IMG/VR virus record: IMGVR_UViG_3300032213_001476
Span: 1-29,088 of that record
Source of the DNA: a virus
DNA: 29,088 nt
Direction: 5' to 3' (one strand)
Position numbers and translations under genes: made by a program. This document shows, one piece after another, positions 3,018-29,088 of the stretch. The notes beneath the pieces were generated by a model that worked only from the letters and a program-made list of their open reading frames with translations, ran no database searches and was not told where the DNA came from. Every line of letters starts with the position of its first letter. Position 1 is the stretch's first letter.

Positions 3018-3026
3018 TTAATCTTG
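3010..3026 (+). promoter_or_regulatory. Ribosome binding site and TTG start
   Basis: AAGGG at 3010-3014 lies 9 bases before TTG 3024-3026. No ATG occurs in frame until 3093, which would remove a conserved-looking N-terminal helix, so TTG is the preferred start of the following gene. Confidence 0.6.
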
Positions 3027-3986
3027 GCCGATTTAACATCATTGATTGCTGGCGGCGCCAAATCTTTGTTAAAAGACAAAGCGTCAGAGTTTATGTCGCC
3101 TCAGCAAATGGAGTTAGCTCGGTTCGCATTAAGCCCCCAAGCGTATTTGGCTGACAAAGGTATTACTGCGGTTGCCCAGTTGTTGGGATATGGCAATGAG
3201 TTCAGAGAACTAAAAGCTGGTGCTGAAGGCGAGAAAGCTTACGGCAAAGAAATAATCCGCGACACCATTGGGAATGCTTTGCCAAATTCTATTGGTGATT
3301 TTGTACGGGCAACTCCCAGAGTTAGTGAAGCAGATTCACAACCCGCTGGGACATATACAGCTTTTGACCCTGAAACGCAAACTTACAAACAGCAAGGATC
3401 GGCTAACCCAGTAGCAATGGGTAATTCCGCTGCGTTTGAAGACTTTATGCGTGATTTGAATGCTGGCGATAATTACCCGGTTGGACCGCTAGAAGAATAT
3501 GACCAAACGCGTTTAAATGATGAGTACGATTTCCAAACTAGTCTTAGCGATTTTCAGCAGCCATCAGAATCAAATACGCGTTCATTGTCTTCCCAACCGT
3601 CTGATACACAAACTCCACCCGGTTACAGTTTTGATCCAAACACGGGAACAATGGTGCCGGACGATTCTGGCGCACAAGCCCCGGAAGGGTTTAGGTTTGA
3701 TCCGGATTTGGGTATGAATGTTCCTAATGAAACGCCCCTCAACGCGGCCCCAGAAGGGTACACGTATGATGCTAATCTTGGTATGAACGTACCAGTTACA
3801 GAAAGCTTAGCCCCAACCGGTTATCAATTTGATCCCAATACGGGAACAGCAGTTCCAATAGACTTTGGCGGCACCATGGATTACGGTGATATGTTTGGCG
3901 GTGGCGGTGGCGGCGGGAAGCTAGAAGATGCTTTTCTACAAGCTCAAGAATACAAACGCGGTGGTCAAATTTGTGGATGTAAATGA
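3024..3986 (+). CDS. Repeat protein with four cysteine-free GYxxDxxxGxxVP units
   Basis: A 320-residue protein starting at TTG. Residues 1-95 are helical and hydrophobic in part (LTSLIAGGAKSLL, AVAQLLGYG). Residues 100-195 are acidic and low in complexity. Four related 15-residue units follow at residues 198-212, 220-234, 243-257 and 264-278, of the form P-x-G-[YF]-x-[FY]-D-x-(N/D)-[TL]-G-x-x-V-P. An eight-residue glycine run lies near residue 291, and the C-terminus is EYKRGGQICGCK. The units match the two-cysteine repeats of the 17679-22019 protein position by position, with both cysteines replaced. No enzymatic function is recognised; a virion role is likely from context. The TGA overlaps the next ATG. 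Confidence 0.85.
   Translation: MADLTSLIAGGAKSLLKDKASEFMSPQQMELARFALSPQAYLADKGITAVAQLLGYGNEFRELKAGAEGEKAYGKEIIRDTIGNALPNSIGDFVRATPRVSEADSQPAGTYTAFDPETQTYKQQGSANPVAMGNSAAFEDFMRDLNAGDNYPVGPLEEYDQTRLNDEYDFQTSLSDFQQPSESNTRSLSSQPSDTQTPPGYSFDPNTGTMVPDDSGAQAPEGFRFDPDLGMNVPNETPLNAAPEGYTYDANLGMNVPVTESLAPTGYQFDPNTGTAVPIDFGGTMDYGDMFGGGGGGGKLEDAFLQAQEYKRGGQICGCK
3615..3860 (+). repeat. Four tandem 15-residue units, about 22 residues apart
   Basis: The units, e.g. PPGYSFDPNTGTMVP and PEGFRFDPDLGMNVP, are spaced 21-23 residues apart and joined by short variable linkers. The second and third share LGMNVP; the first and fourth share FDPNTGT. The alternation (A-B-B-A) suggests duplication of a pair. Confidence 0.8.
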
Positions 3987-4372: not shown

Positions 4373-4735
4373 ATGGCCACTAAAAAAGCCTTGTACACGG
4401 ATAATACTACTACTGAATATCCAGATGGTACTTCTGGCTTGTACGTAAAAGATAAACCTTTTGCGGGAGAGGGTTCTGAATATGTAGGCCCCAATCCTTC
4501 GGAAGCTGGCGCTGGTCGTGGCAAGCAGGGTGGCCCTACAGCCAAAGAGCTGAAAGCGTATGAAGACAAGAAGGACGCGCGCATCTTTACCAAAGAAAAG
4601 CGCATGCCTCCTTCTCCCCGTGAGATGGCTTCGGGCGGTAACGTTTCTTCAGCTTCCAAACGTGCTGATGGTTGTGCTACCAAGGGTAAAACCAAGGGCA
4701 CTATGATCACTATGTACGGCGGCGGGAAGTGCTGA
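4373..4735 (+). CDS. Small protein with MASGG and DGCATKGKTKG motifs
   Basis: A 120-residue protein preceded by TAAGGAG fused to the upstream stop. The N-terminal half (ALYTDNTTTEYPDGT, KPFAGEGSEYVGPN) looks like a small folded domain that I do not recognise. The C-terminal half is basic and carries REMASGGNVSSASKRADG followed by CATKGKTKGTMI and a MYGGGKC ending. The last part aligns with the C-terminal tags of the proteins at 1213, 1981 and 3983. The function is unknown. Confidence 0.85.
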   Translation: MATKKALYTDNTTTEYPDGTSGLYVKDKPFAGEGSEYVGPNPSEAGAGRGKQGGPTAKELKAYEDKKDARIFTKEKRMPPSPREMASGGNVSSASKRADGCATKGKTKGTMITMYGGGKC

Positions 4736-4736
4736 T

Positions 4737-4970
4737 ATGTTAGCCAGCCGTGGCATGGGCGCCATAATGCCCAGCAAAATGCCCAAAGGTGTACGCAAAG
4801 CGCGTAGGGATGACACTGATTTCACGCAGTATGCTAAAGGCGGCGGTGTTGGCTTATATGCCAACATCCATGCCAAACGTGCTCGCGGTGAAAAGATGCG
4901 CAAGCCTGGACAAAAGGGTGCGCCCACAGCTCAGGCTTTTATTGACTCTGCAAAGACGGCTAAAACATGA
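4737..4970 (+). CDS. Small basic GLYANIHAKR-type phage protein
   Basis: A 77-residue, very basic protein. It contains DDTDFTQYAKGGGVGLYAN followed by IHAKRARGEKMRKPGQKG and ends APTAQAFIDSAKTAKT. The GLYANI-x-AKR...GEKMRKPG-x-KGAPTA-x-AF pattern is a conserved small phage family of unknown function. It follows the previous stop by one base and overlaps the next gene by ATGA, so it sits inside the operon directly ahead of the first adaptor-like gene. DNA- or capsid-binding is conceivable from the charge but not shown. Confidence 0.8.
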   Translation: MLASRGMGAIMPSKMPKGVRKARRDDTDFTQYAKGGGVGLYANIHAKRARGEKMRKPGQKGAPTAQAFIDSAKTAKT

Positions 4971-15229: not shown

Positions 15230-17344
15230 ATGGCACTTAAAAAACTAACCCTGAAGGCTGGTGTAAACAAAGAAAACACCCGGTATACCAATGAAAATGG
15301 TTGGTACGTTTCCGACAAAATGCGGTTTCGTCAGGGTACGCCTGAGAAAATTGGTGGCTGGGCACGTATTTCTGGTTATACATTCCAAGGCGTGTGCCGT
15401 TCTTTGTGGAACTGGGTAACACTGGGGTTTTTAAATTTGGTTGGTGTTGGCACTAACTTAAAGTTTTATATTGAAAAAGGCGGGTTTTATTACGACATTA
15501 CACCTATCCGAGCCAGCAGCACAATTAACAATAACCCATTTGTAGCAACGAATGGATCGGCAATTATCACTGTTACTGACACGGCTCACGGTGGAGTAAC
15601 GGGCGACTTTGTCACGTTTAGTGGGGCAGTAGGTCTTGGTGGAAACATCACTGCAACAGTCCTAAATGCTGAGTATCAAATTACAGTAATTGGGGCTAAT
15701 AGCTACACATTTACAGCATCAGCTACGGCAAATGCTACCGATGCTTCAGGATCTCCCGGTGGCGGAGCTTCTGTTGTAGCGGCTTATCAAATTAATGTGG
15801 GTCCATCATATGTTATTTCTCAAACTGGATGGGGCGCTGGAACTTGGGGCGAGGGAACTTGGGGTACTGGTGGGACTAATTTAAGCACTTTACGTATTTG
15901 GAACCAGCAAAACTTTGGTGAAGATTTAATATTTGGCCCCCGTGGTGGAGCGCTGTACTACTGGGATGCCACAAGTGGTGTAACTTCTCGCGGTGTTTTG
16001 GTGTCCAGTTTGGGCGGGACGGTCACTTTGACTATTGCTTCCCCTTGCGTAATTACATTAGGTGTTAGCTTATCTACTGGAACCAGCATTCAGTTGGCCA
16101 CTACTGGCGCTCTACCTACTGGTTTAACTGCCGGAACAACGTACTATTTAGAGAATGTAAGCGGCGCTACGGCTAATCTAGCAGCAACTCCGGGTGGAGC
16201 AGCAATTAATACCAGTGGTGTTCAATCTGGCGTTCAGTCTATTTCCACAATTACCAGCGTCCCATTGATGCAAAACTACATGCTGATTTCGGATGCCAGC
16301 CGATTTGTGTTTGCGTTTGGTACAAATCCATTTGACGGCGTTGTTCAAGATCCCATGTTAATCCGCTGGTCTGCCCAAGAATCGGTAGTTGATTGGTACC
16401 CGCAATCAACCAATCAAGCTGGCGATGCAAGGTTGTCCCACGGCTCTGAGATTATTGTTGCATTGCAAACCCGACAAGAGATCGTAGTGTTTACGGATTC
16501 TTCTCTTTATTCTTTGCAATACCAAGGGCCGCCAGTAATTTGGAGCACACAGCTTTTAGGTGATAACATTTCTATTATTGGCCCTAACGCGGCTGTTATT
16601 GCTTCTGGCGTTGTGTACTGGATGGGCGTAGATAAGTTCTATAAATACGATGGTCGCGTGCAAACATTGCGCTGTGACTTACGCCAGTACATTTTCCAAG
16701 ACATTAATTTGGGCCAAGTTGAACAGGTATTTGCTGGAACTAATGAAGGGTTCAACGAAGTCTGGTGGTTCTATTGTTCTGCCAACAGCAATGCAATTGA
16801 TCTGTATGTAACGTACAACTACGCAGAAGATGTATGGACTTACGGCACTATGGGCCGTACAGCTTGGCTTGACTCTGGTTTACGTAATAACCCAGTAGCA
16901 GCCACATACAGTTATAACCTGGTTAACCACGAGAGTGGTAATGATGACAACATAAGCGGTACGCCCGTAGCTATTAATGCAATTATTGGCTCTGCTGAGT
17001 TTGACATTGACGATGGCGACCACTTTGGGTTTGTCTGGAGAATGCTGCCTGACATTACATTCCGTGGATCTGATGCTGCATCACCTAATGTGACTATGAC
17101 GCTAATTCCTATGCAGAACTCCGGCTCTGGATACAACGATCCAATCTCTCTAGGCGGCAACCCTGACGCAACAGTCACCCGTACATCTACTTCTGTTATT
17201 GAGCAGTTTACGGGTCAGGTGTATGTTAGGGTGCGTGGCCGTCAGATGATTCTTCAGGTTGAGTCTAACCAGCTTGGATGCGCGTGGCAGTTGGGTTCAC
17301 CGCGTATTGACATTAAACAAGATGGTCGCAGGGGTAACTCATGA
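15230..17344 (+). CDS. Tail nozzle / tail tubular protein B-like structural protein
   Basis: A 704-residue protein. The N-terminus (KLTLKAGVNKENTRYTNENG, DKMRFRQGTPEKIGGWARIS) is a highly conserved phage structural start. Later motifs are WNWVTLGFLNLVGVGTNLK, IFGPRGGALYYWDA, SDASRFVFAFGTNPFDG, PMLIRWSAQESVVDWYP, GSEIIVALQTRQEIVVFTDS and YWMGVDKFYKYDGRV. These look like WD-type propeller blades, as in nozzle proteins of short-tailed phages (T7 gp12 and P22 gp10 in role; inference). Two low-complexity beta inserts lie at about 15535-15795 and 16018-16248, and a WG-rich strip at residues 200-215. It would close the distal end of the tail below the adaptor. Confidence 0.8.
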   Translation: MALKKLTLKAGVNKENTRYTNENGWYVSDKMRFRQGTPEKIGGWARISGYTFQGVCRSLWNWVTLGFLNLVGVGTNLKFYIEKGGFYYDITPIRASSTINNNPFVATNGSAIITVTDTAHGGVTGDFVTFSGAVGLGGNITATVLNAEYQITVIGANSYTFTASATANATDASGSPGGGASVVAAYQINVGPSYVISQTGWGAGTWGEGTWGTGGTNLSTLRIWNQQNFGEDLIFGPRGGALYYWDATSGVTSRGVLVSSLGGTVTLTIASPCVITLGVSLSTGTSIQLATTGALPTGLTAGTTYYLENVSGATANLAATPGGAAINTSGVQSGVQSISTITSVPLMQNYMLISDASRFVFAFGTNPFDGVVQDPMLIRWSAQESVVDWYPQSTNQAGDARLSHGSEIIVALQTRQEIVVFTDSSLYSLQYQGPPVIWSTQLLGDNISIIGPNAAVIASGVVYWMGVDKFYKYDGRVQTLRCDLRQYIFQDINLGQVEQVFAGTNEGFNEVWWFYCSANSNAIDLYVTYNYAEDVWTYGTMGRTAWLDSGLRNNPVAATYSYNLVNHESGNDDNISGTPVAINAIIGSAEFDIDDGDHFGFVWRMLPDITFRGSDAASPNVTMTLIPMQNSGSGYNDPISLGGNPDATVTRTSTSVIEQFTGQVYVRVRGRQMILQVESNQLGCAWQLGSPRIDIKQDGRRGNS

Positions 17345-17682
17345 TTGTTACTTCTGAATTTGAGATTAACCAAGTAGCTGCACCAAACTTGCCGTTGGCT
17401 CCTACGGAATACGAGCGTCAGTACCAAGACCAGCTAAACAATGTGCTTCGTCTTTACTTTAACAGGCTTGATTCAATTCTAGATCAGTTAAAAACAGACG
17501 AGATTATCCCTGCATTGACCAATTACACTGTGGCAACGTTGCCAAGTGCGGTTACAGCGGGTATAGGTGCTCGGTCTTTTGTTACTGATGCTTTGCTTCC
17601 TGCGTTTGGGGCTACTGTTGCGACTGGTGGCGCAGTAGCTGTGCCCGTATACTCTGACGGAACGGATTGGAAGGTTGGATGA
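17341..17682 (+). CDS. Small conserved tail-associated protein
   Basis: A 113-residue protein. The N-terminal half is helical (TEYERQYQDQLNNVLRLYFN, RLDSILDQLK). The C-terminal half has the pattern YTVATLPSA...GIGARSFVTDAL...AVPVYSDGTDWKVG, resembling the small beta tip (x-A-FVTDA, P-V-x-SDG-x-W) found in phage fibre and neck-associated proteins. It overlaps the nozzle-like gene (ATGA) and the large following gene (ATGA), which suggests coordinated synthesis with the tail. No enzymatic function is seen. Confidence 0.8.
   Translation: MIVTSEFEINQVAAPNLPLAPTEYERQYQDQLNNVLRLYFNRLDSILDQLKTDEIIPALTNYTVATLPSAVTAGIGARSFVTDALLPAFGATVATGGAVAVPVYSDGTDWKVG
17669..17674 (+). promoter_or_regulatory. Shine-Dalgarno GGAAGG for the 1446-residue gene
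   Basis: GGAAGG at 17669-17674 precedes two adjacent ATGs, at 17679 (4-base spacer, ATGA overlap) and 17682 (7-base spacer). Either could be used; an upstream TTG at 17667 overlaps the site itself and is unlikely. Confidence 0.55.
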
Positions 17683-20600
17683 TGGTTCAACAATTAAAAA
17701 CAGTGCTGGAAGACGATCCCACTACAGAAGATGACTTGCTGTCCGTACTCGGTGCGGCAGCGCCAGCCAAAAAAGATACCAGCGTAGTAGACGCACTGAC
17801 CAAACAAATCCTAGGGCAAGGTTTAACTGGTAAGTGGTCTGGTCAAGGTCATGGCAGTGCTGAAGCCAATGCCACAAACATGGCTCAGATTCTTTCTAGT
17901 GCTGGCATTACTGACATTAAACAGTTTGGCAAAGTTCCAGCATATACCCCAGTAACCGAGTTGTATAAAACATATAACGGGAAACAGGTTATTGAGCAAG
18001 GTAATGAAGATGGTACAACTGTTCGCTACTTTACGGAGCCTACGGGAACTTCGTATTCTGCTTATGATTCGGAGGGCAATGAAGTATTAAGACCTGAATT
18101 TCGGCAGGTTAATATCCCTAAAGACGCAAAACTTGAGACTATATATGGCGTACCCAACCCTGAGTATCAGCCATTTGAAGGCCAACCACAATGGCTCTCA
18201 ACACATAAAGAATCTGATGTTATTAAAAAAGACGGCCAACTGGTTACTAAAACTGGCGAAACTTTTGGCAATAAAGTAACAGGTCAGGCAGTTCCTTCAA
18301 ATTACGACAAAGCAGGTGGCAACATCTGGTCTGGTACTTTTGCGGGTAAGGGTTCTACTAGCTATGGCGTTCAATTTGGGCCTGATGGAACCCCTATTTT
18401 TTACACGCAGTATGGTGGATCATCAAATGACTTAGCCAAGATAATGGCTGACATTGGCCCTCTTGGTAATATTGCTTTAGCTGTAGCTACAGGGGGTTTA
18501 ACTATACCCCAGCAGATTGCCGCTAATTTAGCGTTTCAAGTTTTAAGTGGGAAAGACATTGGCGAAGCTCTTAAAAGCGCAGCCATAAGTTTAGCGGTTG
18601 CTCAAATCCCGGGCACCGACGTGATGAAGGAAGCTAACAAGTACATTGCGGGCTTGGATCTTCCAGTAACAGTTACCAACACAATTAATAGCGCGGTGCA
18701 AAATGCCGTGACATCTGGCGCAAGGGCTGCGTTGACTGGGCAAAATATTGGCGACGCCGTGCTTAGAGGTGCCGCTACTGGCGGTACAAACGGTGCAGTA
18801 GGCGCACTATTAAAAGAGGTTGATGGCTTTAGCGATCTGACGGGCACCCAGAAAAAAATGGTAATTAACGCCGTCACGGGCGTTATCTCAGGTAAACCGT
18901 TAGACCAGATAGCTATAAATGCAGCGATTGCTGCGGCGAATGCTGAAATTGCAGACCAAAAGAAATACGCGCCGTTAGATAAAGCAGACGAAGACGACCT
19001 TACCCCCGGCGAAAAAGCCGCCTATGATGAAGGGGGCACCAAAGCACTACTGGAGTTGCGCCGCAGTTTAAAAAACATGTCCGGTTTGACAACCAGTGGC
19101 CGAACCGGTGACGATACGGGTGGCGGTGATTTAACTACAACTGACACCACGCTACCAATTGGCGTGCAGGTTGCATCCACTGACAATAACGCATTTAAAA
19201 CGGACATCGGCGGCACACCTACGTATGCTGAAAGCGCGAATGCGGCTTCTATTACCCCTCCGTTTGGTTACACCCTGCTATCTTCTTCAGAAGCAGATGC
19301 CAAGCCAGAGGGGTCGTACTACGACATAACGGCAAATGCTTGGTTTAAGCCATCTACAGACACCAATGTAACGGACACGGTAACCGTCCAAGCAGATAGG
19401 GATTTATTCAATACCTCTATTGGTGACTTGGATCGTTTGGATACCGCAAGAACGGCAGATGATTTTGCTGCCTTCTTAAAGTCAATTGGTATTACCAACA
19501 CTGACGAGCTTACGGATAGCGGGCTGAGCAACCAAGACATTTTAGATTTGATTAATGCCACAGACGACACGGTAACTGTTGTTGGCGATCCAACAACCGA
19601 TACGACTACAAGCACAATTGGCGACAAAACTGATCAGACTGACAAGGTTGATACAGTCACGGTAACCGGCAATAAAGACGAACACGGATGCGATAAAGCA
19701 ACTCAGTACTGGGACCCGGTGCTAGAAAGTTGCCAGCTTAAGGTAGCAGATACAACCGACACAACCAACACACCCGACACAACCGAAACGGTTACCGTTA
19801 CGGGGTGTGGTCCCGGAAAAGAACGTAATGCAGCTGGCGAATGCGTGCCTATTGACTGCGGTGCAGGTAAGTACTGGGATCCTATAACAGGCCAGTGCGA
19901 AGTATCGGCTACAACACCTACAACAATCACCTGCCCTACAGGTAAAGTATTAAATGAAGCTGGTACGGCCTGTATTGACGAGGTCATCATCAAGGACAAG
20001 AAGTGCGACCCCGGGTTTGTCTACGATGAAGACCTAAAGATGTGCGTAGCCGAGCAGCAAACGTTGGTGTGCGATGCCGGATTCCACGAAGAAAATGGGG
20101 TTTGCGTCAAAGATAAATTGGTGTGCGACGCAGGCTACCACGAAGAAAACGGCGTATGCGTCAAAGACAAAATAACGTGCCCCGCCGGTAAAGTATTAAA
20201 TGCAGAAGGTACGGCATGTATTGACGAAGTTAAAATAACCGCTTGTGGTCCCGGAAAAGAACGTAATGCAGCTGGCGAATGCGTGCCTATCGATTGCGGT
20301 GCTGGCAAACATTGGGATCCAATAACGGGCCAATGCGAGCTTAATGCGGTTATTGATGAGTGCCCTACCGGTTACCATCGTGATGATACGGGCATTTGCG
20401 TTAAAGACACGCTGACATGCCCTCCGGGTAAAGTGCTAAATGAAGCTGGTACTGCGTGTATTGATGTAGTTAACGTTACGGCTTGTGGTCCCGGAAAAGA
20501 GCGCAATGCTGAAGGCAAGTGCGTGCCTATTGATTGTGGTCCAGGCAAACACTGGGATCCGATAACTAACCAGTGCGAGCTTGATGCCGTAATTGATGAA

Positions 20601-22019
20601 TGCCCAACGGGTTACCATCGTGATGCTACGGGCGTGTGCGTTAAAGATACCTTAACGTGCCCAGAAGGGTACGAACCAAATGAAGCTGGTACTGCATGTA
20701 TTCCGGTAGTAGTTATCAAAGACAAAAAGTGCGATCCAGGTTTTGTCTATGACGAAGACCTGAAGATGTGCGTAAAAATTGAGGACGACTGCCCTACTGG
20801 ATACCACCGTGATGCTACTGGTGCGTGCGTGCTTGACGATTGCCCAACTGGTTACGAGCGTGATGAGGTTACGGGCAAGTGCATACCCGTAATTGAAATT
20901 AAAGACAAGAAGTGCGATCCAGGTTTTGTTTACGATGAAAACTTGAAGATGTGCGTGCCGATTAAAGAAGAGCCATGCCCAACAGGTTACGAAAAGGTTA
21001 ACGGAACCTGCGTGCCAGTTTGCAAAGCTGGCTATCACCGCGACGCTACGGGCGTGTGCGTGCCGGACGACACTGACAAATGCCAGACTGGTTATGAGAA
21101 GATAAACGGTACTTGCGTGCCAGTTTGCGCGGCAGGTTATGTGCGCAATCTCACAACTGGAGTTTGCGAAAAAGTTCAAGAGCCTTGCGCTAAAGGGTAC
21201 CATCGTGATGAAACCACGGGCTTATGCGTTCCGGATGATGACGGCAAATGCCAAACCGGATATGAAAAAGTTAACGGCACTTGTGTACCAGTTTGCGCGG
21301 AAGGATACATACGTAACTTAGCCACGGGCGTTTGCGAGAAAGCCGAAGAGCCATGCCCTAAGGGGTATGAGCGTGACGAAGAGACCGGCGCTTGTATTCC
21401 TGTACTTGAAATTGAAGCGTGCAAAGACGGAAAAGTGCGCGACCCGATCACCGGTCTGTGCGTTTTGCCACCAGAAGACGAATCTTGCGCCGATGGTTTT
21501 CATCTAGAAAACGGGCTTTGTGTTCCTGACGATGACGAGAAATGCCAAGTCGGTTACGAGAAGGTAAACGGTACTTGCGTGCCAGTTTGTCAAGAAGGAT
21601 ACATACGTAATTTGGCATCAGGCGTCTGCGAAAAGGCGGAACAGGCTTGCCCAACCGGTCAGACTAAAAATGCAGAAGGTAAGTGCGTACCTATTGTGGT
21701 AACGCCTACTCCGTGCCCAGCAGGTCAAACTAGAAATGCCGCAGGGGTGTGCGTTCCAATTACGACAACCACAACCACAACCACAACCCCAACTCCTACA
21801 GGCGGGGCGCTCTCCCAAGAAAAAATTGACCCTATTTATGCGGGCGCTATGGGGGACTTCGATTTGTTTGCAACTTTGGAAGAATTGTTGTCGAACGACT
21901 CCAATAAAAAATCTACCCAAAACAAGCAACAAACTACTAAAATGGCTTCCGGTGGGTACCTTGATGACCTGCTGGCGGAGCAGACGACAGTAGATGATCT
22001 GCTAAAACTACTACGCTAA
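17679..22019 (+). CDS. Giant virion-region protein with 34 two-cysteine repeats
   Basis: A 1446-residue protein. Residues about 1-250 are a mixed domain (TTEDDLLSVLGAA, WSGTFAGKGSTSYGVQFGP). Residues about 250-427 are Gly/Ala-rich helices (IGPLGNIALAVATGGL, ISLAVAQIPG, AINAAIAAANAEI) that could meet membranes. Residues about 430-670 are acidic and Thr/Asp-rich, with repeated TVTV elements. Residues 671-1358 hold 34 units of the type C-x-x-G-[YFKQ]-x(6-9)-C-[VIE], giving 68 cysteines and none elsewhere. A nine-Thr run, then KMASGGYLDDLLAEQ and TTVDDLLKLLR, end the protein; this DDLL element echoes the N-terminus. The repeats recall EGF-like or GCC2/GCC3 modules and suggest a disulfide-linked rod. 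No catalytic motif is seen. It lies between tail and ejection-protein genes. Confidence 0.8.
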   Translation: MMVQQLKTVLEDDPTTEDDLLSVLGAAAPAKKDTSVVDALTKQILGQGLTGKWSGQGHGSAEANATNMAQILSSAGITDIKQFGKVPAYTPVTELYKTYNGKQVIEQGNEDGTTVRYFTEPTGTSYSAYDSEGNEVLRPEFRQVNIPKDAKLETIYGVPNPEYQPFEGQPQWLSTHKESDVIKKDGQLVTKTGETFGNKVTGQAVPSNYDKAGGNIWSGTFAGKGSTSYGVQFGPDGTPIFYTQYGGSSNDLAKIMADIGPLGNIALAVATGGLTIPQQIAANLAFQVLSGKDIGEALKSAAISLAVAQIPGTDVMKEANKYIAGLDLPVTVTNTINSAVQNAVTSGARAALTGQNIGDAVLRGAATGGTNGAVGALLKEVDGFSDLTGTQKKMVINAVTGVISGKPLDQIAINAAIAAANAEIADQKKYAPLDKADEDDLTPGEKAAYDEGGTKALLELRRSLKNMSGLTTSGRTGDDTGGGDLTTTDTTLPIGVQVASTDNNAFKTDIGGTPTYAESANAASITPPFGYTLLSSSEADAKPEGSYYDITANAWFKPSTDTNVTDTVTVQADRDLFNTSIGDLDRLDTARTADDFAAFLKSIGITNTDELTDSGLSNQDILDLINATDDTVTVVGDPTTDTTTSTIGDKTDQTDKVDTVTVTGNKDEHGCDKATQYWDPVLESCQLKVADTTDTTNTPDTTETVTVTGCGPGKERNAAGECVPIDCGAGKYWDPITGQCEVSATTPTTITCPTGKVLNEAGTACIDEVIIKDKKCDPGFVYDEDLKMCVAEQQTLVCDAGFHEENGVCVKDKLVCDAGYHEENGVCVKDKITCPAGKVLNAEGTACIDEVKITACGPGKERNAAGECVPIDCGAGKHWDPITGQCELNAVIDECPTGYHRDDTGICVKDTLTCPPGKVLNEAGTACIDVVNVTACGPGKERNAEGKCVPIDCGPGKHWDPITNQCELDAVIDECPTGYHRDATGVCVKDTLTCPEGYEPNEAGTACIPVVVIKDKKCDPGFVYDEDLKMCVKIEDDCPTGYHRDATGACVLDDCPTGYERDEVTGKCIPVIEIKDKKCDPGFVYDENLKMCVPIKEEPCPTGYEKVNGTCVPVCKAGYHRDATGVCVPDDTDKCQTGYEKINGTCVPVCAAGYVRNLTTGVCEKVQEPCAKGYHRDETTGLCVPDDDGKCQTGYEKVNGTCVPVCAEGYIRNLATGVCEKAEEPCPKGYERDEETGACIPVLEIEACKDGKVRDPITGLCVLPPEDESCADGFHLENGLCVPDDDEKCQVGYEKVNGTCVPVCQEGYIRNLASGVCEKAEQACPTGQTKNAEGKCVPIVVTPTPCPAGQTRNAAGVCVPITTTTTTTTTPTPTGGALSQEKIDPIYAGAMGDFDLFATLEELLSNDSNKKSTQNKQQTTKMASGGYLDDLLAEQTTVDDLLKLLR
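19806..20290 (+). repeat. 47-bp exact direct repeat inside the cysteine array
   Basis: The 47 bases at 19806-19852 recur exactly at 20244-20290, 438 bp apart (146 codons). They encode CGPGKERNAAGECVP. A third, diverged copy starts at 20484. The exact copies indicate recent internal recombination or duplication. Confidence 0.85.
20178..20657 (+). repeat. 240-bp supra-repeat, two copies of a four-unit block
   Basis: Blocks 20178-20417 and 20418-20657 each encode the same order of four units (C-P-x-GKVLN, CGPGKERN, CG-x-GKHWDP, CPTGYHRD) over exactly 80 residues. A third block begins at 20658 but soon changes order. Confidence 0.85.
21765..21788 (+). repeat. ACAACC hexanucleotide repeat, four units
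   Basis: Four perfect ACAACC units encode most of a nine-threonine linker between the cysteine repeats and the C-terminal segment. Such a tract can change length by slippage in 6-bp steps without frameshift. Confidence 0.85.
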
Positions 22020-22028
22020 GGACTCAAG

Positions 22029-23990
22029 ATGGCACAAGTTTGCGAACAAGTTTATAACCCCCACACGGATGAGTACGAAGAGTATTGCTACGACGACGGG
22101 TCCAACGAAAGCGTATCCGGCGACTATAGCACTGACGAAAGCGTTTCAGGCAATTTTACTTGGGGCGACGCGCCCGGAGCAGGTTCTAGCACAGTAGTTG
22201 ACCCCACAACGGGAAATATTACTTATAAGTTAGAAGACGGTTCATCAATAACTGTAGGCCCTGACCGTATGCCCGTTAGTGCTACCGAAAGCCCTGACGC
22301 CAAAGGAAATTCAGCGGCTTACAACCGTACTTTGGCATGGACCACCAAGACGTTTGGTCCTACTGCGGGCAAAGTGTTTGCCAACATGATGGCAAATCCC
22401 GGCGCTAGTATTATGACTGCATTGGCGGCATCAAAAGCGTTTGCAGGTAGCGATAGCCAAGGCGGGTATAACAAGCCAATCCCTAAGCTGGACGCAGTTA
22501 CACAACAAATTGAATATAACGACCCAAACCGCAGACCCGGCTCTGCTGGTCGCCAATATACGACTGACCCGCGTTACGTAAAAGAAGGCGACGCCGCAGG
22601 TTTGGCCGCCGCACAAGCTGCATCCGACGCGCAAAAAGCTGGCATTTTGGCAGCATACAGACCCGCAGCTAGAGAAGTAAATCCGTATATTGGGAAAACC
22701 AACATGAAATGGAATACCCCTGAAGCCACCACTACCACTGCCAATACGCAAAACACCACTGCGGGGCTTCCCGCTATTCCTACTCAGGCGCAACTTATGG
22801 ATCCAAAATACAAATTCGGCATGGCTGATGGAGGTATTGCAATGGCTAAAGGTCGCTACTTGCGCGGCGGTACTGATGGTATGGCCGACAAAATTCCGTC
22901 TAGTATTGATGGCGATCAGCCTGCGGCTTTAAGCCATGGTGAGTTTGTAATTCCTGCCGATGTGGTATCGCACTTGGGTAATGGCAATTCAGATGCCGGT
23001 GCCCAGAAGCTGTATCAAATGATGGATCGCATCCGTCAAGCCCGCACTGGTACCAAAGAGCAAGGCAAAAAGATTAACCCTGACAAGTTTATGCCCGGTG
23101 GTTTGGCTGCTGCTTATGCCGGTGGGGGAGAAGTTAAAGGGTTCCCAGATGGAGGCACAGTAACTGGAACTGGTGGCATACCATTAGATACATCCAAAAC
23201 ATCTACGCTTTCTCCTTGGGCGGGCGATTACGTCACAAACATGTTGGCTAAAACACAGGCGTTGGCCAACGCCCCTCAGGAATTTTATAAAGGCCCGTTG
23301 ACGGCTGGCCAATCTGATTTACAAAACCAAGGCTTTGCAGGACTAAGTGATATTGCAAAAGCTGGATACGATCCCACCAAGTTTACGTCCGGCACATTTG
23401 ATACAACTGCCGCTAATAAGTACATGAACCCGTACTTGATGGCTTCGCTTAACCCCCAGATGGAAGAAGCCCGTCGTCAGTCTATGATTACCCAACAAGG
23501 TAATGCTGCAAAGATGACCAGTGCCGGAGGGTTTGGTGGTTCCCGTAGCGCCTTGATGGATGCGGAATCACAACGAGCACTTGGCACTAACATGTCCAAT
23601 ATCGTGGGTACCGGCCTTAATACGGCATACGACAAAGCCATGGCTCAATTTAATGCTGAACAAAACCGTGGTTTGGATACTCAAAAAGCTACGGAAGCAT
23701 CGCGCCAATACAGCGCTGACTACGGACTGAAGTCCATGAACGATTTGCTGAACGCCGGTAAAACACAGCGTGATATTGAATCTGAAGGTATTGCCGCAGA
23801 CAAGAAGCAGTGGGAAGAGCAGCAAGCTCGCCCATACACAAACTTGGAGTTCCAGCGCAAAATGCTCGAAGGCTTGCCAATTGGAGCGTCAACGACATCA
23901 ACAAACCAAGACGCGCTATCTAAAATGCAATCAGATGTTGCAGGCTTGGCTTCTTTGTATGCATCGCTTTCTAAACTTATCCCTAAATAA
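22029..23990 (+). CDS. Internal virion / ejection-type protein with GEFVIPADVV motif
   Basis: A 653-residue protein, preceded by TAAGGA. The N-terminus is acidic (EYEEYCYDDGSNESVSGDYS). Residues about 265-340 contain MADGGIAMAKGRYLRGGTDG, then DKIPSSIDGDQPAALSHGEF with VIPADVVSHLGNG; this is a recurrent module of phage virion-associated proteins. PGGLAAAYAGGGEVKGFPDG follows. The C-terminal half (NPQMEEARRQSMITQQGNA, GGFGGSRSALMDAESQ, AMAQFNAEQNRGL) is long amphipathic helix, as in DNA-ejection proteins of short-tailed phages. It is therefore probably packaged in the capsid and released at infection; this is inference from composition and from the two similar genes downstream. Confidence 0.75.
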   Translation: MAQVCEQVYNPHTDEYEEYCYDDGSNESVSGDYSTDESVSGNFTWGDAPGAGSSTVVDPTTGNITYKLEDGSSITVGPDRMPVSATESPDAKGNSAAYNRTLAWTTKTFGPTAGKVFANMMANPGASIMTALAASKAFAGSDSQGGYNKPIPKLDAVTQQIEYNDPNRRPGSAGRQYTTDPRYVKEGDAAGLAAAQAASDAQKAGILAAYRPAAREVNPYIGKTNMKWNTPEATTTTANTQNTTAGLPAIPTQAQLMDPKYKFGMADGGIAMAKGRYLRGGTDGMADKIPSSIDGDQPAALSHGEFVIPADVVSHLGNGNSDAGAQKLYQMMDRIRQARTGTKEQGKKINPDKFMPGGLAAAYAGGGEVKGFPDGGTVTGTGGIPLDTSKTSTLSPWAGDYVTNMLAKTQALANAPQEFYKGPLTAGQSDLQNQGFAGLSDIAKAGYDPTKFTSGTFDTTAANKYMNPYLMASLNPQMEEARRQSMITQQGNAAKMTSAGGFGGSRSALMDAESQRALGTNMSNIVGTGLNTAYDKAMAQFNAEQNRGLDTQKATEASRQYSADYGLKSMNDLLNAGKTQRDIESEGIAADKKQWEEQQARPYTNLEFQRKMLEGLPIGASTTSTNQDALSKMQSDVAGLASLYASLSKLIPK

Positions 23991-24008: not shown

Positions 24009-25814
24009 ATGAATCTCGTTAAAGCGCAAGAACTGGCACAGAGCATGCCCCAGCAAGAGCTGGAAAAGTATGCCAATGGTTTTGCCCCGCACATCATTCC
24101 GCCTTGGTTGGCAACGGGTGAGATGCAGGCCAAGATGCAGCGTATGCAAAAAATGCAGGCCATGCAAGGTGCTGCGCAGGGCCCGCAGCCCAGCATAAAA
24201 GAACAGATTGAGCAGAAAGTTGGATTGATGGGCTTGCAACAAGCTCAGCAGCAAATGGCTCAGCAACAACAGATGGGGCAGCGTCCTCCAGCAGGCCCGG
24301 TGCCTGAAGGTACGCCCGAGCCAGAGATGCAGCCCAGGGCCGAAATGATGATGGCCCGCGGCGGCTTGGCTAGTGTCCCTGTGCGCTTTAATTATGATGG
24401 TGGCGGCATTGTGGCGTTTACAAGTGGCGGCGACGTAGATAGCGCTCGTGAAGCGGCTAAAGAAGCTCAAGCTAAAGTGCGCACGTATGGTTTGGCCCAA
24501 CGAAACAGGGACCCCGAAGGTTACCAGGCAGCACAAGATGCTCTGGAAAAAGCGCAATCTGCTTTAGCTGCTGTTGAAGCGGCATACGCCAAAGAAATGT
24601 CGGCGGCGGGTGCGGATCGTCCGGCTACTTCTAGACAACAAGTTGGTGGCATTAAGCAATTGATGGCTGCCAACGCACCCGCTGTTTCTGGTGATTTAGC
24701 TAAAGACCTTTATTCAGATTATGGCAACGTCAAAGGCGGGCGTGGAACTGGTACTGGCGAAGCTGGATCAAGTTATTATGTTGGTTCAACACGTCCTGCC
24801 GATTTCCCAAATCTTCCGCCTGTTGAAACGGCAAAAGTTCCTACATCATCTGCGAATACACGACCTACGCCTCCTGCGCCCCAGCCGCCAGCACCCGCTC
24901 AAGGCCTGCCAAATATCCCAGGCTTGAACGACCCAGCCGCACAAGCCGCTGTATCTGCCGCCATGAAGGCGCCGGATCAGGGTGCGTTGCTGTCAGAAAA
25001 CCAAGCGCGTTTAGCAGCCATGGGCGTGACTGGCCGTGGTGGTGAAGAGCAAGAGGCTCGAATCCAAGCGGCTCGTGACCTTTATGAGAAATCACGCCCA
25101 TCTGGTTTGGATGACTTGATTCGCATGCTTGGTCAAGCTGGTCAATACAAAGGTTTGTCAGGTACAGGCCCGGCGTATACGGCTTTGCAAGCGCAAAGGC
25201 GAGCTGACGATCTCAAGATGCAGCGGGACGAAATGGAAATGCGTAACGCGGTTGATGTTGCTCGGCGCTCTGAAGGTATTTCTGGCGCCAATAAAGTTGG
25301 CGATACATTGAGCAAGCTGCGTGATACGGCTGCTACCACAGGAGCTAGTGTCTTTGGTAACCAGATGTCAGGTAACGTTCAACTTGCCAACCAAGCGTCT
25401 AGCAATGCTACTCAAATGCAAATTGCAAGAGAGCGCAACTTAAATGCGCTTGAAGTGCAAAAGCTTCAAGCCGCTTCTGCTAATCGTCCGGGTGAAACAG
25501 AGCGTTTGATGATGCAATACGGCGCCATAAAAGCCAAAGATCCGCAAGCTGCCGAGCAATTTATGGCTGATTTGGAGCGCATCAAGACTGGTTCACGCGG
25601 TACTACAGCTCAAGATAAGATTGCGCTTCAGCGTCAAGCTTTGGTTGAGAAAAACGAAGTTTATAAAAACGCTGCGCAACAATACTATTTTAGTAAAGAC
25701 CCTGCCAAAAAAGCATCAGCTAAAGTTATCATGCAAGATATTGAGCGCGGCGCTGGCATCATGCCCGACCTGCCAGACAATATTGCAAACTTAGTAAGTC
25801 AATACGCAAAATAA
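24009..25814 (+). CDS. Internal virion / ejection-type protein, Gln/Ala-rich
   Basis: A 601-residue protein. The N-terminus (LVKAQELAQSMPQQELEKYA, FAPHIIPPWLATGEMQ) is followed by a Met/Gln-rich helical region (residues about 38-95). MMARGGLASVPVRFNYDGGG then IVAFTSGGDVDS at about residues 113-145 is a recurrent module of phage virion proteins. Then come an Ala-rich coiled coil, a Pro-rich linker (residues about 275-300) and a long helical C-terminal part (DDLKMQRDEMEMRNAVDV, KIALQRQALVEKNEVYKN). No catalytic site was found. By size, composition and position it would belong to the ejected internal proteins along with its two neighbours. Start preceded by GAGG. Confidence 0.75.
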   Translation: MNLVKAQELAQSMPQQELEKYANGFAPHIIPPWLATGEMQAKMQRMQKMQAMQGAAQGPQPSIKEQIEQKVGLMGLQQAQQQMAQQQQMGQRPPAGPVPEGTPEPEMQPRAEMMMARGGLASVPVRFNYDGGGIVAFTSGGDVDSAREAAKEAQAKVRTYGLAQRNRDPEGYQAAQDALEKAQSALAAVEAAYAKEMSAAGADRPATSRQQVGGIKQLMAANAPAVSGDLAKDLYSDYGNVKGGRGTGTGEAGSSYYVGSTRPADFPNLPPVETAKVPTSSANTRPTPPAPQPPAPAQGLPNIPGLNDPAAQAAVSAAMKAPDQGALLSENQARLAAMGVTGRGGEEQEARIQAARDLYEKSRPSGLDDLIRMLGQAGQYKGLSGTGPAYTALQAQRRADDLKMQRDEMEMRNAVDVARRSEGISGANKVGDTLSKLRDTAATTGASVFGNQMSGNVQLANQASSNATQMQIARERNLNALEVQKLQAASANRPGETERLMMQYGAIKAKDPQAAEQFMADLERIKTGSRGTTAQDKIALQRQALVEKNEVYKNAAQQYYFSKDPAKKASAKVIMQDIERGAGIMPDLPDNIANLVSQYAK

Positions 25815-25823
25815 GGTTGGGCT

Positions 25824-28800
25824 ATGGCAGACATGCAGACTCTTTACCGTGCGCTACAAAATGCGCACGCGGCAGGTGACGTCCAGGCAGCAACGCAACT
25901 GGCCACATACATCAAGAGTATGCAGGGTCAACCCGAAGCCGAGCCCGCGGAGCCTGGTTTCTTTGGTGGCGCTAAAGCCGCCGCAGTCCGTGGCTTTGAG
26001 GCCGTACCCGAAAGCGCATCCGGTATTGGCTTAGGTATTAAAGCTGCCCTGGGCATGCGGGAATCTGCCGGTAAACAAGCAGAAGAAATTCGCGCACAAG
26101 CTAAAGCAGAAGCAGGTAAGCCCCAGGGCGTATCGTTTGCTGATCTGGAAAAGGCATATCAAGAACAAGGCCTGATGGCTGCAGCCAAGAAGGTTCCCTC
26201 CTACATTACTGAGCAAGCCTTGCAAAGCGCTCCGTCTATGGCTGTGCCGTTGGCCGCTGGTGCTGGCGCTGCTGCTTTTGCTGGCCCGCTTGCTCCCGTC
26301 GTGGGACCAGCTGTAGGTATTGGTACGTATGGCCTGCAACAGTTTGGTAACTTCATGCGCCGGCAAGCTGAAGAGGGCGCTACCGGTGACACCTTAGCTC
26401 CTGCTAAAGCATTTGGTACGGCTGCTGTAAGCGCTCCATTAGGTTACTTTGCTGATCGCCTGACATTAGGTTTTGGCAAGGTACCTGAAAAGATTCTGGG
26501 GCAACAGGTTGCTGCTGAGTTGGCGAAACGTGCGGGTGTTCGTGCTGCTACGGGCGCTACTATTGGTGTTGTAGCAGAAGCTCCTACTGAAGTGTTAGAG
26601 CAGATGGGTGAACGCTGGCAAGCAGGTCTACCCCTCAAGGGTGAAGACGCGATGCGCGAATACAAAGAGGCATTCTTTGGCGCTGCTGCTATTGGCGGTG
26701 TTGGCGGTGCTGCTGCCGGAGCCCTCCGTAAGCCTACAGTTACACCCAAAGAAGAGCCTCCTGCATACGAGCCACCAGTTTCCCTAACCGGAAAAACACC
26801 CGCCGAGATGTTCCAGGAGCAGGCTGCCGGCCGTCAGGGCATGGGCGCCGATGTGATGGGTGCCGTGCGTGAGCGTGAAGCCGCTGCTGCCAAAGCCAAA
26901 CAAGATGAGCTGGACGCCCAACGTGCTACACAAGAGCGCGCTGCTGGTTTGTTTGAGCAACAAGCTGCCCCACGTAATGAAGATTTGATGCAAGCTGCCC
27001 GCGTCCGTGCGGAGGAGAAGGCTGCCGCTGATGAAGAAGCGCGCATCCAGGCTGAGAAAGAAGCCAAAGCTAAACGTGATGCCGAAGCTAAAGCTGCTGC
27101 TGCCGCTACGTACAGCGGTGACCCAGCGATCAATGCCGTTCGTCGTGATGAACAGCTAGCCACCCTTGGCTATCAGATGTCCAGGGATAAGCAGGGTAAC
27201 GATATTGTTATACCTATTCCACCCGCTGGCAGGGATCTGGCAGCTGAACGCGCAGCCCAAGAGGCAAAAATTGCCGAAGGTCGCAGAGCTGATGAAGTGC
27301 GTCAGTCCCTGGCCGGGACTACGGCTAACGAAGATTTGATGGCGTCTATCCGTCAACGTCAAGCAGACCAAGCTGCGGCTGCTGCCAAAGCTGAACAGGA
27401 CAAAAAGGCTTCGGCAACCAGCGATGTAGAGGCGCGTGTGCGCGGCATCATGGTGACAGAATACAGCCGTGACCCGATTATGAACAACGCCCGTCAGCGT
27501 GAAGCCCTGGGTGAATTGGGATATGAGCTAAAGTTGGACAAGAAGGGTAACCTGACACCCCAGCCAAAGCCCCCGGCAGCCACTACAACGCCAGCCGTAA
27601 CGCCTACGTCTTTAACGTTGGAAAAGCCACCAGCAAAACTACCCGTTACCACAACTCCCGAGGTGCGGGAAGAGTACCCACCGTTGACACAATCTGAAGT
27701 GGACGAACTAGGCCTGATCCCGCCCGCCAAAGTGGTTACGCCCAAAGAGCCCAAGGTAGATTACTTTAATCACCCTGAAAACATTGGTCACGACGCATCG
27801 GCTGATCGCGAGCTGGATGAAAAGGGTAAATTGCAGGTTGCACCACAACCAATTACCGAAGGTGGCGCTCCATTTAAGTCACGCAAATCAGCAGATATGG
27901 CGCGTAAAAACTATCCTGAAATGCGCGTACTCCCATTAAAGAGTGGGTCAGGATTTATCTTGGCTCCAAAGACTCCAAAGCAAATTGTTGCCGATGAAGC
28001 TAAAGCTAAACGTTTAGGCGTGGCCAAGACGTCGGCTACGGGTACGCCCATGTCTGCGCATGAGTACATCACCAGCGAAGGCGGCTTAGCGAAAACTGAA
28101 ATGTCTGATATGAACATGGACAAGAACGTCCGTGTTGGTAACCGATTCCTATTTGCTGGCGAAGGCAAAGGGTTAACCATGGAGCGAGCTACCGAAAAGC
28201 TTCAGGAAGCCGGCTACTTGGGTGAGAATGCCACCATGAACGATGCCCGCAACATGCTTACGGAAAGCGTTAAGAAACCCCAGTATCGTTCACAAGATCT
28301 GGAAGAGATGACTGAGCGCGAAACTAAAAAGCAGTTTTCCGATTACCTGAAAGCCGAAGAAGAAGCATCCCTTTATTCCCCCGTCGATGAAGAGCTGGGT
28401 TATGAGATGTCTGACTTTGACGGCACTGGCTACGAAGCTGCCGACCCTGACGTCCAGGCTGAAGTGCGCGCGCTGCTGGCCCAGGCCGATGAGCTTGGCA
28501 TCGATACAGAATCAATGAGAGAAGAGGTCTTTTATGAAACAGAAAACCAATCAGTCCAAGCCTACTACAAAGCCTTTAAGTCAGCCCTCGAAGGAGCCAT
28601 CGACCGAGGCCGTGAAGATAGCGTCCAGGATACTGGCGAACCGAGCGATGCGGGAACTGAACTCACGCTAACCCAACCAACCGCTCAAGAGATTATTGAT
28701 AAGCAGGATGCTGCGATCAAAACGGAAAAGGACAGGAAGGCTGCCGAGCGCGCTGCGGAAGAGAAAGCGAAAGCTGACGAAGCTGCTGCTGACTTTACCT

Positions 28801-29088
28801 TGACAGGTAGCGACCGGGATGCTGATGTTGCTGCAGCCCAGGGTCAAGGAGATATCTTTGCCGAACCAGCAAAACCCAAGGCACCGCCCAAGCTCACGCC
28901 TCCACCAGATTTCAAGTTAAAAGAAAACCGCAACGAGCAAGTTGTGTTGGCTGCCCGTGAACTCGAAGCTGGCCGCATTACCAAAGAACAGTTTGATGAG
29001 TATGTAGATTTCTACATGCCTATTGGCACGGTGCCTAATCCTGAGAGGCCCATGTCTCAATCTGACATGAAGTTGGTTTTGCAGACTA
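25824..29088 (+). CDS. Giant ejection/polyvalent protein, 3' end beyond the window
   Basis: The frame from ATG 25824 (AAGG at 25813-25816) is open for 1088 codons to the window end. Residues 1-35 (LYRALQNAHAAGDVQAATQL) are a helical hairpin common at the start of large phage internal proteins. Residues about 127-173 (SMAVPLAAGAGAAAFAGPLA, PVVGPAVGIGTYG) and 230-304 are Gly/Ala-rich hydrophobic segments like those of membrane-traversing ejection proteins. Residues about 340-620 are charged coiled coils, including two 117-residue repeats. Residues about 680-1040 (PFKSRKSADMARKNYPEMRV, VRVGNRFLFAGEGKGLTMER, AYYKAFKSALEGAIDRGRED, DFTLTGSDRDADVAAAQGQ) match patterns of large polyvalent proteins of phages and conjugative elements. 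Later enzymatic domains may lie past 29088. Confidence 0.85.
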   Translation, partial: MADMQTLYRALQNAHAAGDVQAATQLATYIKSMQGQPEAEPAEPGFFGGAKAAAVRGFEAVPESASGIGLGIKAALGMRESAGKQAEEIRAQAKAEAGKPQGVSFADLEKAYQEQGLMAAAKKVPSYITEQALQSAPSMAVPLAAGAGAAAFAGPLAPVVGPAVGIGTYGLQQFGNFMRRQAEEGATGDTLAPAKAFGTAAVSAPLGYFADRLTLGFGKVPEKILGQQVAAELAKRAGVRAATGATIGVVAEAPTEVLEQMGERWQAGLPLKGEDAMREYKEAFFGAAAIGGVGGAAAGALRKPTVTPKEEPPAYEPPVSLTGKTPAEMFQEQAAGRQGMGADVMGAVREREAAAAKAKQDELDAQRATQERAAGLFEQQAAPRNEDLMQAARVRAEEKAAADEEARIQAEKEAKAKRDAEAKAAAAATYSGDPAINAVRRDEQLATLGYQMSRDKQGNDIVIPIPPAGRDLAAERAAQEAKIAEGRRADEVRQSLAGTTANEDLMASIRQRQADQAAAAAKAEQDKKASATSDVEARVRGIMVTEYSRDPIMNNARQREALGELGYELKLDKKGNLTPQPKPPAATTTPAVTPTSLTLEKPPAKLPVTTTPEVREEYPPLTQSEVDELGLIPPAKVVTPKEPKVDYFNHPENIGHDASADRELDEKGKLQVAPQPITEGGAPFKSRKSADMARKNYPEMRVLPLKSGSGFILAPKTPKQIVADEAKAKRLGVAKTSATGTPMSAHEYITSEGGLAKTEMSDMNMDKNVRVGNRFLFAGEGKGLTMERATEKLQEAGYLGENATMNDARNMLTESVKKPQYRSQDLEEMTERETKKQFSDYLKAEEEASLYSPVDEELGYEMSDFDGTGYEAADPDVQAEVRALLAQADELGIDTESMREEVFYETENQSVQAYYKAFKSALEGAIDRGREDSVQDTGEPSDAGTELTLTQPTAQEIIDKQDAAIKTEKDRKAAERAAEEKAKADEAAADFTLTGSDRDADVAAAQGQGDIFAEPAKPKAPPKLTPPPDFKLKENRNEQVVLAARELEAGRITKEQFDEYVDFYMPIGTVPNPERPMSQSDMKLVLQT
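26976..27677 (+). repeat. 351-bp coding tandem repeat, two diverged units
   Basis: Units 26976-27326 and 27327-27677 align in frame at exactly 117 residues. NEDLM starts at 26976 and 27327, the Y-S-x-DP element at 27111 and 27462, and LGY at the Tyr codons 27171 and 27522. No gap is needed between these landmarks. The units are diverged, so the duplication is old and structurally maintained. Confidence 0.8.

Follow-up and report, generated by a model that had tools for sequence, protein, structure and literature searches.

We found that a 1446-residue protein, encoded among the tail and ejection-type genes of a lake phage, carries 34 consecutive two-cysteine units, and that this array appears to be one of several exchangeable fillings of a spacer slot. 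The proteins sharing the slot form a large, unnamed phage family, here called CYSFAM, in which quite dissimilar rods occupy the one slot. Each hairpin loop of the array is probably closed by one cysteine pair, judging from how the cysteines co-occur. Together, the observations suggest a spacer that locks on meeting the oxidising host envelope or the outside water, in a cluster almost without cysteine. The window analysed is the whole stretch of 29,088 nt (IMG/VR record IMGVR_UViG_3300032213_001476, positions 1 to 29,088).

Two-cysteine units and their predicted fold

The ATG of the array protein overlaps the stop codon of a 113-aa gene, and inspection by eye revealed no obvious signal peptide. 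The protein is laid out as follows.

17679..22019, + strand: array protein (CYSFAM), 1446 aa; open reading frame call, start conserved in relatives
17796..18422, + strand: N-terminal alpha/beta domain, residues ~40-248, conserved in 266 loci; AF2 pLDDT mostly 85-98
18426..18968, + strand: Gly/Ala-rich amphipathic helical region, residues ~250-430, from sequence, hydropathy and AF2 helices (low to moderate confidence)
19689..21752, + strand: 34 two-cysteine hairpin units, consensus C-x-x-G-[YFKQ]-...-G-x-C-[VI]-P; hairpin strands in the AF2 model of units 23-34
21753..22016, + strand: conserved C-terminal tail, ..KMASGGYLDDLLAEQTTVDDLLKLLR
21987..22016, + strand: C-terminal helix motif TVDDLLKLLR

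All 68 cysteines fall within residues 671-1358 (the first at 19689, the codon of the last ending at 21752), while residues 1-670 and 1359-1446 contain none. The preliminary description had assigned them to 34 two-cysteine units at 19689-21752, which the reading frame count and the spacing statistics confirm exactly. The spacing C-x(10-13)-C recurs in 34 consecutive units and nowhere outside the array; the cysteine-to-cysteine step is 11-14 residues within units (mean 12.35, SD 0.84; 11-13 in 33 units and 14 in unit 1) and 4-25 residues between them (SD 3.7). When the inner 66 cysteines were placed at random, 0 of 20,000 placements brought as many as half of the odd gaps into the range of 11-14. 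The array is moreover one intact frame and recurs with 1 to 25 units in independent contigs, and we therefore consider it real rather than a product of chance. A tandem-repeat finder detected duplications inside it, with a 240-bp period (2.1 copies) and a 54-bp period (2 copies); given these recent duplications, ordinary recombination is the probable source of changes in unit number.

We characterized the cysteine pairing using a unit profile with both cysteine columns masked, run on the open reading frames of the loci collected at that stage and counting matches of at least 6 bits. In related phages, 256 matches had both cysteines and 0 had one (bar one unit truncated where its contig stops), and complete array proteins have even cysteine counts, from 2 to 68. 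Units with neither cysteine also exist, in a second, upstream open reading frame of the array phage that is unrelated to the array protein.

3606..3866, + strand: four cysteine-free unit copies in ORF 3024-3986; Cys-masked unit HMM E 1.9e-16

In these copies, the first cysteine is replaced by T/A and the second by M/N/A, as in the cysteine-free unit APEGYTYDANLGMNVP aligned against CDPGFVYDEDLKMCVP. Relatives of this ORF have one unit (L110) or four (L113), all cysteine-free. The hairpin therefore occurs with both cysteines or with neither, and the two behave as a pair, as a within-unit disulfide would predict. On this pattern, we regard disulfide pairing within units as highly probable, whether the protein is ejected or external.

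In form, a unit corresponds to one 'c' loop of a cEGF domain, a beta-hairpin of minimal size. In the AF2 model (units 23-34, 13 rows), paired strands were predicted in every modelled unit; where units were checked by position, the first cysteine precedes strand 1 by four residues and the second falls within strand 2 or at its beginning. Confidence in the array model is moderate (pLDDT about 55-77, pTM 0.17), and the units are not packed on each other. The model shows hairpins strung loosely together and gives no support to the redox-triggered rigid rod proposed earlier.

In cEGF connectivity, 'c' is the last disulfide loop, and the spacing and topology of the array units match it; the C-terminal hairpin feature of cEGF, C5-x(10+)-C6 with CxxG[YF], is likewise present in their spacing and motif. 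The cEGF profile (PF12662) matches 11 of the 13 array rows (best E 4.3e-15), the CBM_14, DUF4215 and TIL profiles also match (9-11 of 13 across the four families), and Foldseek with the array model returned weak matches to EGF, LRP2 and TNFR chains. Common to cEGF/EGF-like, TIL (PF01826), CBM_14 (PF01607) and DUF4215 (PF13948) domains is a C-x-x-G-[YF] hairpin with a cysteine 11-13 residues on; EGF, TIL and CBM_14, however, hold 6 to 10 cysteines in a fixed knot, whereas each array unit has one pair. The array was described correctly as EGF-like insofar as its unit resembles the last EGF-like loop, but by cysteine count and Pfam no unit is an EGF or a GCC2/GCC3 domain.

Complete domains were rejected one by one, and the array contains no full cysteine-knot domain. 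Exactly two cysteines per unit rule out a whole EGF-like or cEGF domain (six cysteines, ababcc) and do not suit a TIL domain (ten cysteines, five disulfides), for which matches were partial and this array fell below the cut-off. CBM_14 peritrophin (six cysteines, full-length match) reached 24.7 bits over the whole protein, with no single stretch passing. GCC2_GCC3 was absent from the Pfam matches of the whole protein at E<=0.1 and from the listed array matches at E<=1. A search for relatives among solved structures gave only a chance-level match to R-spondin.

The CYSFAM family and its spacer slot

Searching with the N-terminal region identified 266 loci in viral contigs, and bacterial genomes yielded 0 homologues of the N-terminal domain or the array. 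The N-terminal domain had no PDB match by Foldseek at E<=0.001 and no sequence or fold homology to known ejection proteins (hhalign, Foldseek); an SSB-like fold was discarded (E about 0.05, TM-scores near 0.1-0.2). In tblastn searches of 50,697 phage records, the piece of this array found nothing at E<=1, the array piece of a relative (L109) found one chance-level match (E 6), and the whole protein matched a single record through its N-terminal domain only. Matches of five relatives to the phrog_790 'endolysin' profile cover only its C-terminal part and were not taken as function. Pfam, PHROG and PDB searches of the array protein found no trimeric fibre fold, receptor-binding domain or lectin-like domain.

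Family members share a layout of N-terminal domain, Gly/Ala-rich helical region and spacer, often followed by a C-terminal helix ending (TVDDLLKLLR, LSVDALLHILRN or TDVDTLLQILRG). A related ending is present in 25 of 49 complete members, cysteine-free ones included, compared to 4 of 650 other open reading frames. Between these parts lie two-cysteine arrays of 1 to 34 units or, in other relatives, (EP)47, poly-P43, (NPAV)16, (VTPQ)16, (TPSNVV)10 and (NTNPTV)9, PxV repeats among them, or coiled coils. The variation in unit number among homologues that had been proposed as a check is thus found. Mapped onto the tree of the adjacent nozzle protein, with only complete genes scored as lacking it, the array was gained or lost at least nine times. 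Since cysteine-free relatives place (EP)n, poly-P or coiled coils in the same slot, what is conserved seems to be the spacing role, for which redox is one solution. In the CYSFAM spacers, nature has in effect varied both length and chemistry experimentally, and the databases and literature searched contained no described match to the family, to its spacer exchange or to a 34-unit array in a tailed-phage tail or ejection locus.

Several relatives have features of their own. One (L040, 3841-8361) has an uninterrupted (EP)47 spacer where the cysteine array would be, comparable to the Pro-rich segment with which TonB spans the periplasm. Two members occur in tandem in one phage (L053, 4996-9984; also L055). 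Four relatives (L003, L004, L005 and L030) have RTX-like GGxGxD repeats in the linker ahead of the array, a motif that suggests calcium binding.

Gene order and cysteine content around the array

Across the contigs covering the locus, the gene order is holin, lysozyme, nozzle, p113, array protein, p653, p601 and a large protein (pBIG). The neighbours of the array gene in the window are as follows.

15230..17344, + strand: nozzle or P22-gp10-position tail protein, 704 aa, 5 cysteines; phrog_3287
17341..17682, + strand: p113, 113 aa, cysteine-free, needle position; synteny in 44 loci
22029..23990, + strand: p653, 653 aa, cysteine-poor block, ejection-type by position; hhalign matches
24009..25814, + strand: p601, 601 aa, cysteine-free, same block; synteny and cysteine count
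25824..29088, + strand: pBIG, large cysteine-free protein, open at the contig end; in the place of the DSL-LC04 'DNA transfer protein'

By hhalign, the 704-aa protein corresponds to nozzle gp17 of SU10 (E 2e-5, prob 77), and its relatives include a phage 'stabilization protein'; genes at 4967 and 6757 encode proteins of the SU10 adaptor type. Downstream, p653 matches, at the same genome place, the 294-aa protein of DSL-LC04, a protein of Pag-Yong1, and HTVC027P gp83 (hhalign), and pBIG has a weak hhalign match to LUZ24 gp50. As a needle, p113 was not confirmed, since hhalign gave no homology to a known one. The array gene thus directly follows the nozzle and needle positions and stands beside other ejection-type genes, as in the layouts of SU10 and P22. 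The SU10 genes for nozzle gp17 and needle gp18 precede those for gp20-24, proteins that virions contain and that are absent once the genome has been released (PMC9509320). The strict order of nozzle, p113, array protein and ejection-type genes bears out the initial placement of the gene in a virion region. Elsewhere in the window, ORFs 1213-1896, 1981-2757 and 4373-4735 have in common a C-terminal motif, [RS]xDG[IC]A.[RK]GKT[KR]G (at 1846, 2707 and 4661); MASGG precedes it in two of them, and MA[ST]GG also occurs in the tail of the array protein.

We compared cysteine content across P22, T7, LUZ24, lambda, N4, phiKMV, P-SSP7 and SU10 (L114-L121), using protein lists that we picked from annotation and literature. 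Across seven model phages, proteins that are ejected or internal contain 5 cysteines in 15,633 aa and other virion proteins 109 in 16,709 aa (0.65% cysteine), a difference whose Fisher p of 2.5e-25 describes a chosen sample rather than a survey. Ejected proteins with experimental support (P22, T7, N4 and SU10 gp20-24; PMC9509320) have 1 cysteine in 10,820 aa, and the 3500-aa N4 polymerase has none.

The CYSFAM loci show the same avoidance: p113 has 1 cysteine in 6,627 aa, p653 12 in 20,103, p601 3 in 10,312, the large protein 0 in 13,351 and the CYSFAM proteins outside their units 40 in 90,948, with 1 in 18,896 aa for the N-terminal domain and following helical region of relatives (alignment A6). 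Non-avoiding genes of the same loci are the nozzle (375 in 48,761 aa) and the lysozyme (139 in 5,131 aa). Conditions in the periplasm are oxidising (PMC8954989), a simple reason for ejected proteins to avoid cysteine. The array protein avoids it outside its units and breaks the avoidance only with the array itself; because the protein is otherwise under this constraint, the 34 cysteine pairs look selected. The needle position is cysteine-poor in P22 and SU10 as well, and thus a cysteine-poor block cannot separate a needle-like, external protein from an ejected one.

We present the cysteine avoidance of ejected phage proteins as a new and general observation. The literature searched contains no statement of it, and an ejection-protein review lacks the word 'cysteine', which marks the limit of a search rather than a proof of novelty. 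Cysteine avoidance could be a general sequence mark of ejected phage proteins; if so, it offers a simple way to find them in uncharacterised phages.

Candidate roles and known systems

We favour, at somewhat less than an even chance, a tether belonging to the tail-tip or ejection cluster, whose hairpin spacer is threaded reduced through the tail and stapled in an oxidising compartment. The array protein would be a modular tether in podophages of fresh water that have an SU10-like nozzle, its exchangeable spacer joining the conserved N-terminal domain to the conserved C-terminal helix. In this phage, the spacer would be a string of 34 short beta-hairpins, each with its own C1-C2 disulfide. The chain would be made as flexible thiols in the reducing cytoplasm, kept in all likelihood together with the ejection proteins or close to them, and then passed through the tail. 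Stapling would occur on entry into the oxidising compartment (the host periplasm, by Dsb-type oxidation) and yield a compact, protease-resistant spacer whose length is set by the unit number.

We infer disulfide formation, ejection rather than an external place, and oxidation as the working step from several lines of computational evidence: the both-or-neither cysteines, the fixed intra-unit and variable inter-unit spacing, the hairpin strands of the AF2 model, the match in spacing to the cEGF 'c' loop, the cysteine avoidance of the block, the strict gene order, and spacers exchanged while C-terminal helix endings are kept in many members. Of the two settings first suggested for the disulfides, after lysis or in the periplasm, the periplasm gains weight from the cysteine avoidance of ejected proteins and of the array protein outside its units. 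Against the tether reading stand the only moderate confidence of the array model, an N-terminal domain without homology to known ejection proteins, and the at least nine array changes, a turnover also typical of surface-exposed host-range modules. If the tether reading is true, the array protein is a concrete example of a phage that exploits the redox difference between cytoplasm and envelope to switch folding. Rather unlikely is its most specific form, in which the host's periplasmic disulfide machinery would fold the ejected protein inside the host, with 34 bonds per molecule, host oxidation would be used or even required for genome entry, and phages would as a general rule strip cysteine from ejected proteins.

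The main rival, to which we give a substantial but lesser probability, is an external tail appendage or adhesin, the array forming a stalk near the nozzle that is oxidised after lysis in aerated water. Tail disulfides are known in tailed phages (crAss001, PMC10172136; Pam3, as quoted in PMC10329688). The array units resemble extracellular modules by cEGF profile and Foldseek and recur in exported bacterial proteins (TraN, Ig-like) and in a filamentous-phage coat or adsorption-type protein, and the RTX-like repeats of some relatives, the fast module turnover and the cysteine-poor needle position also fit. However, external virion proteins of the model phages have a normal cysteine content, whereas CYSFAM avoids cysteine outside its units; the searches gave no domain of lectin-like, trimeric or receptor-binding type; and the C-terminus is a short conserved helix rather than a variable tip. 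Even if the protein is external, no other tailed phage in this analysis has a two-cysteine hairpin array as long.

It is improbable that the cysteines instead bind metal (for example, one zinc per two neighbouring hairpins) or stay as free thiols, with the hairpin fold alone serving as the spacer. Cytosolic synthesis with no obvious signal peptide would suit this arrangement, and the cysteine-free units of ORF 3024-3986, L110 and L113 indicate that the fold may not need the bond; but inter-unit spacing of 4 to 25 is ill-suited to fixed metal sites across units, CxxC knuckles are absent, and a strict both-or-neither pattern is the expected mark of a disulfide. Least probable is a late cytoplasmic or lysis-stage product merely located among virion genes: holin and lysozyme genes are nearby and the array protein is a putative virion protein by gene position, yet its place between nozzle and ejection-type genes is strict in dozens of contigs and its cysteine avoidance is common to the neighbouring proteins.

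Returning to the tether, the array protein resembles the ejection proteins SU10 gp20-24, P22 gp7/16/20, T7 gp14-16 and N4 gp50-52 in its place after the nozzle or needle and, outside the array, in its cysteine avoidance and Gly/Ala-rich helical region; unlike it, those checked have no two-cysteine array, and hhalign gave no sequence homology between them and the N-terminal domain. Plasmid TraN and large exported proteins of Shewanella and Alteromonas also have many C-x(10-13)-C units (13 in Vibrio TraN by masked HMM, E 3e-5). These bacterial proteins differ in architecture, have a similarity of 21-29% and may be convergent.

A closer likeness is the coat or adsorption-type protein phrog_4454 of the Stenotrophomonas and Xanthomonas filamentous phages SMA6, PSH1, XacF13 and Cf1c, which has about 5 of the same two-cysteine units in tandem. 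The whole array protein matches its profile at E 9.3e-15, best over residues 1270-1358 (the last units). Weak relatives of the array outside CYSFAM lie in three filamentous-phage-type contigs (L131, L132 and L133), whose phrog_4454 protein (E 2.4e-141) has about five units, and relatives are annotated as 'A coat protein' (Cf1c) and minor coat protein (XacF13). The phrog_4454 protein belongs to an unrelated phage type, has few units and shares no N- or C-terminal domain with the array protein; unlike the array protein, it has an apparent Sec signal peptide and an apparent C-terminal anchor, and it can thus oxidise in the periplasm before assembly. Disulfides have also been reported in assembled tailed-phage virions (crAss001, PMC10172136; Pam3, quoted in PMC10329688). 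With both precedents, the earlier argument that such arrays are rare in phages, whose proteins fold in a reducing cytoplasm, was overstated. By these profile matches, the phrog_4454 protein appears to be the nearest phage precedent, and it shows that the two-cysteine unit itself is not new.
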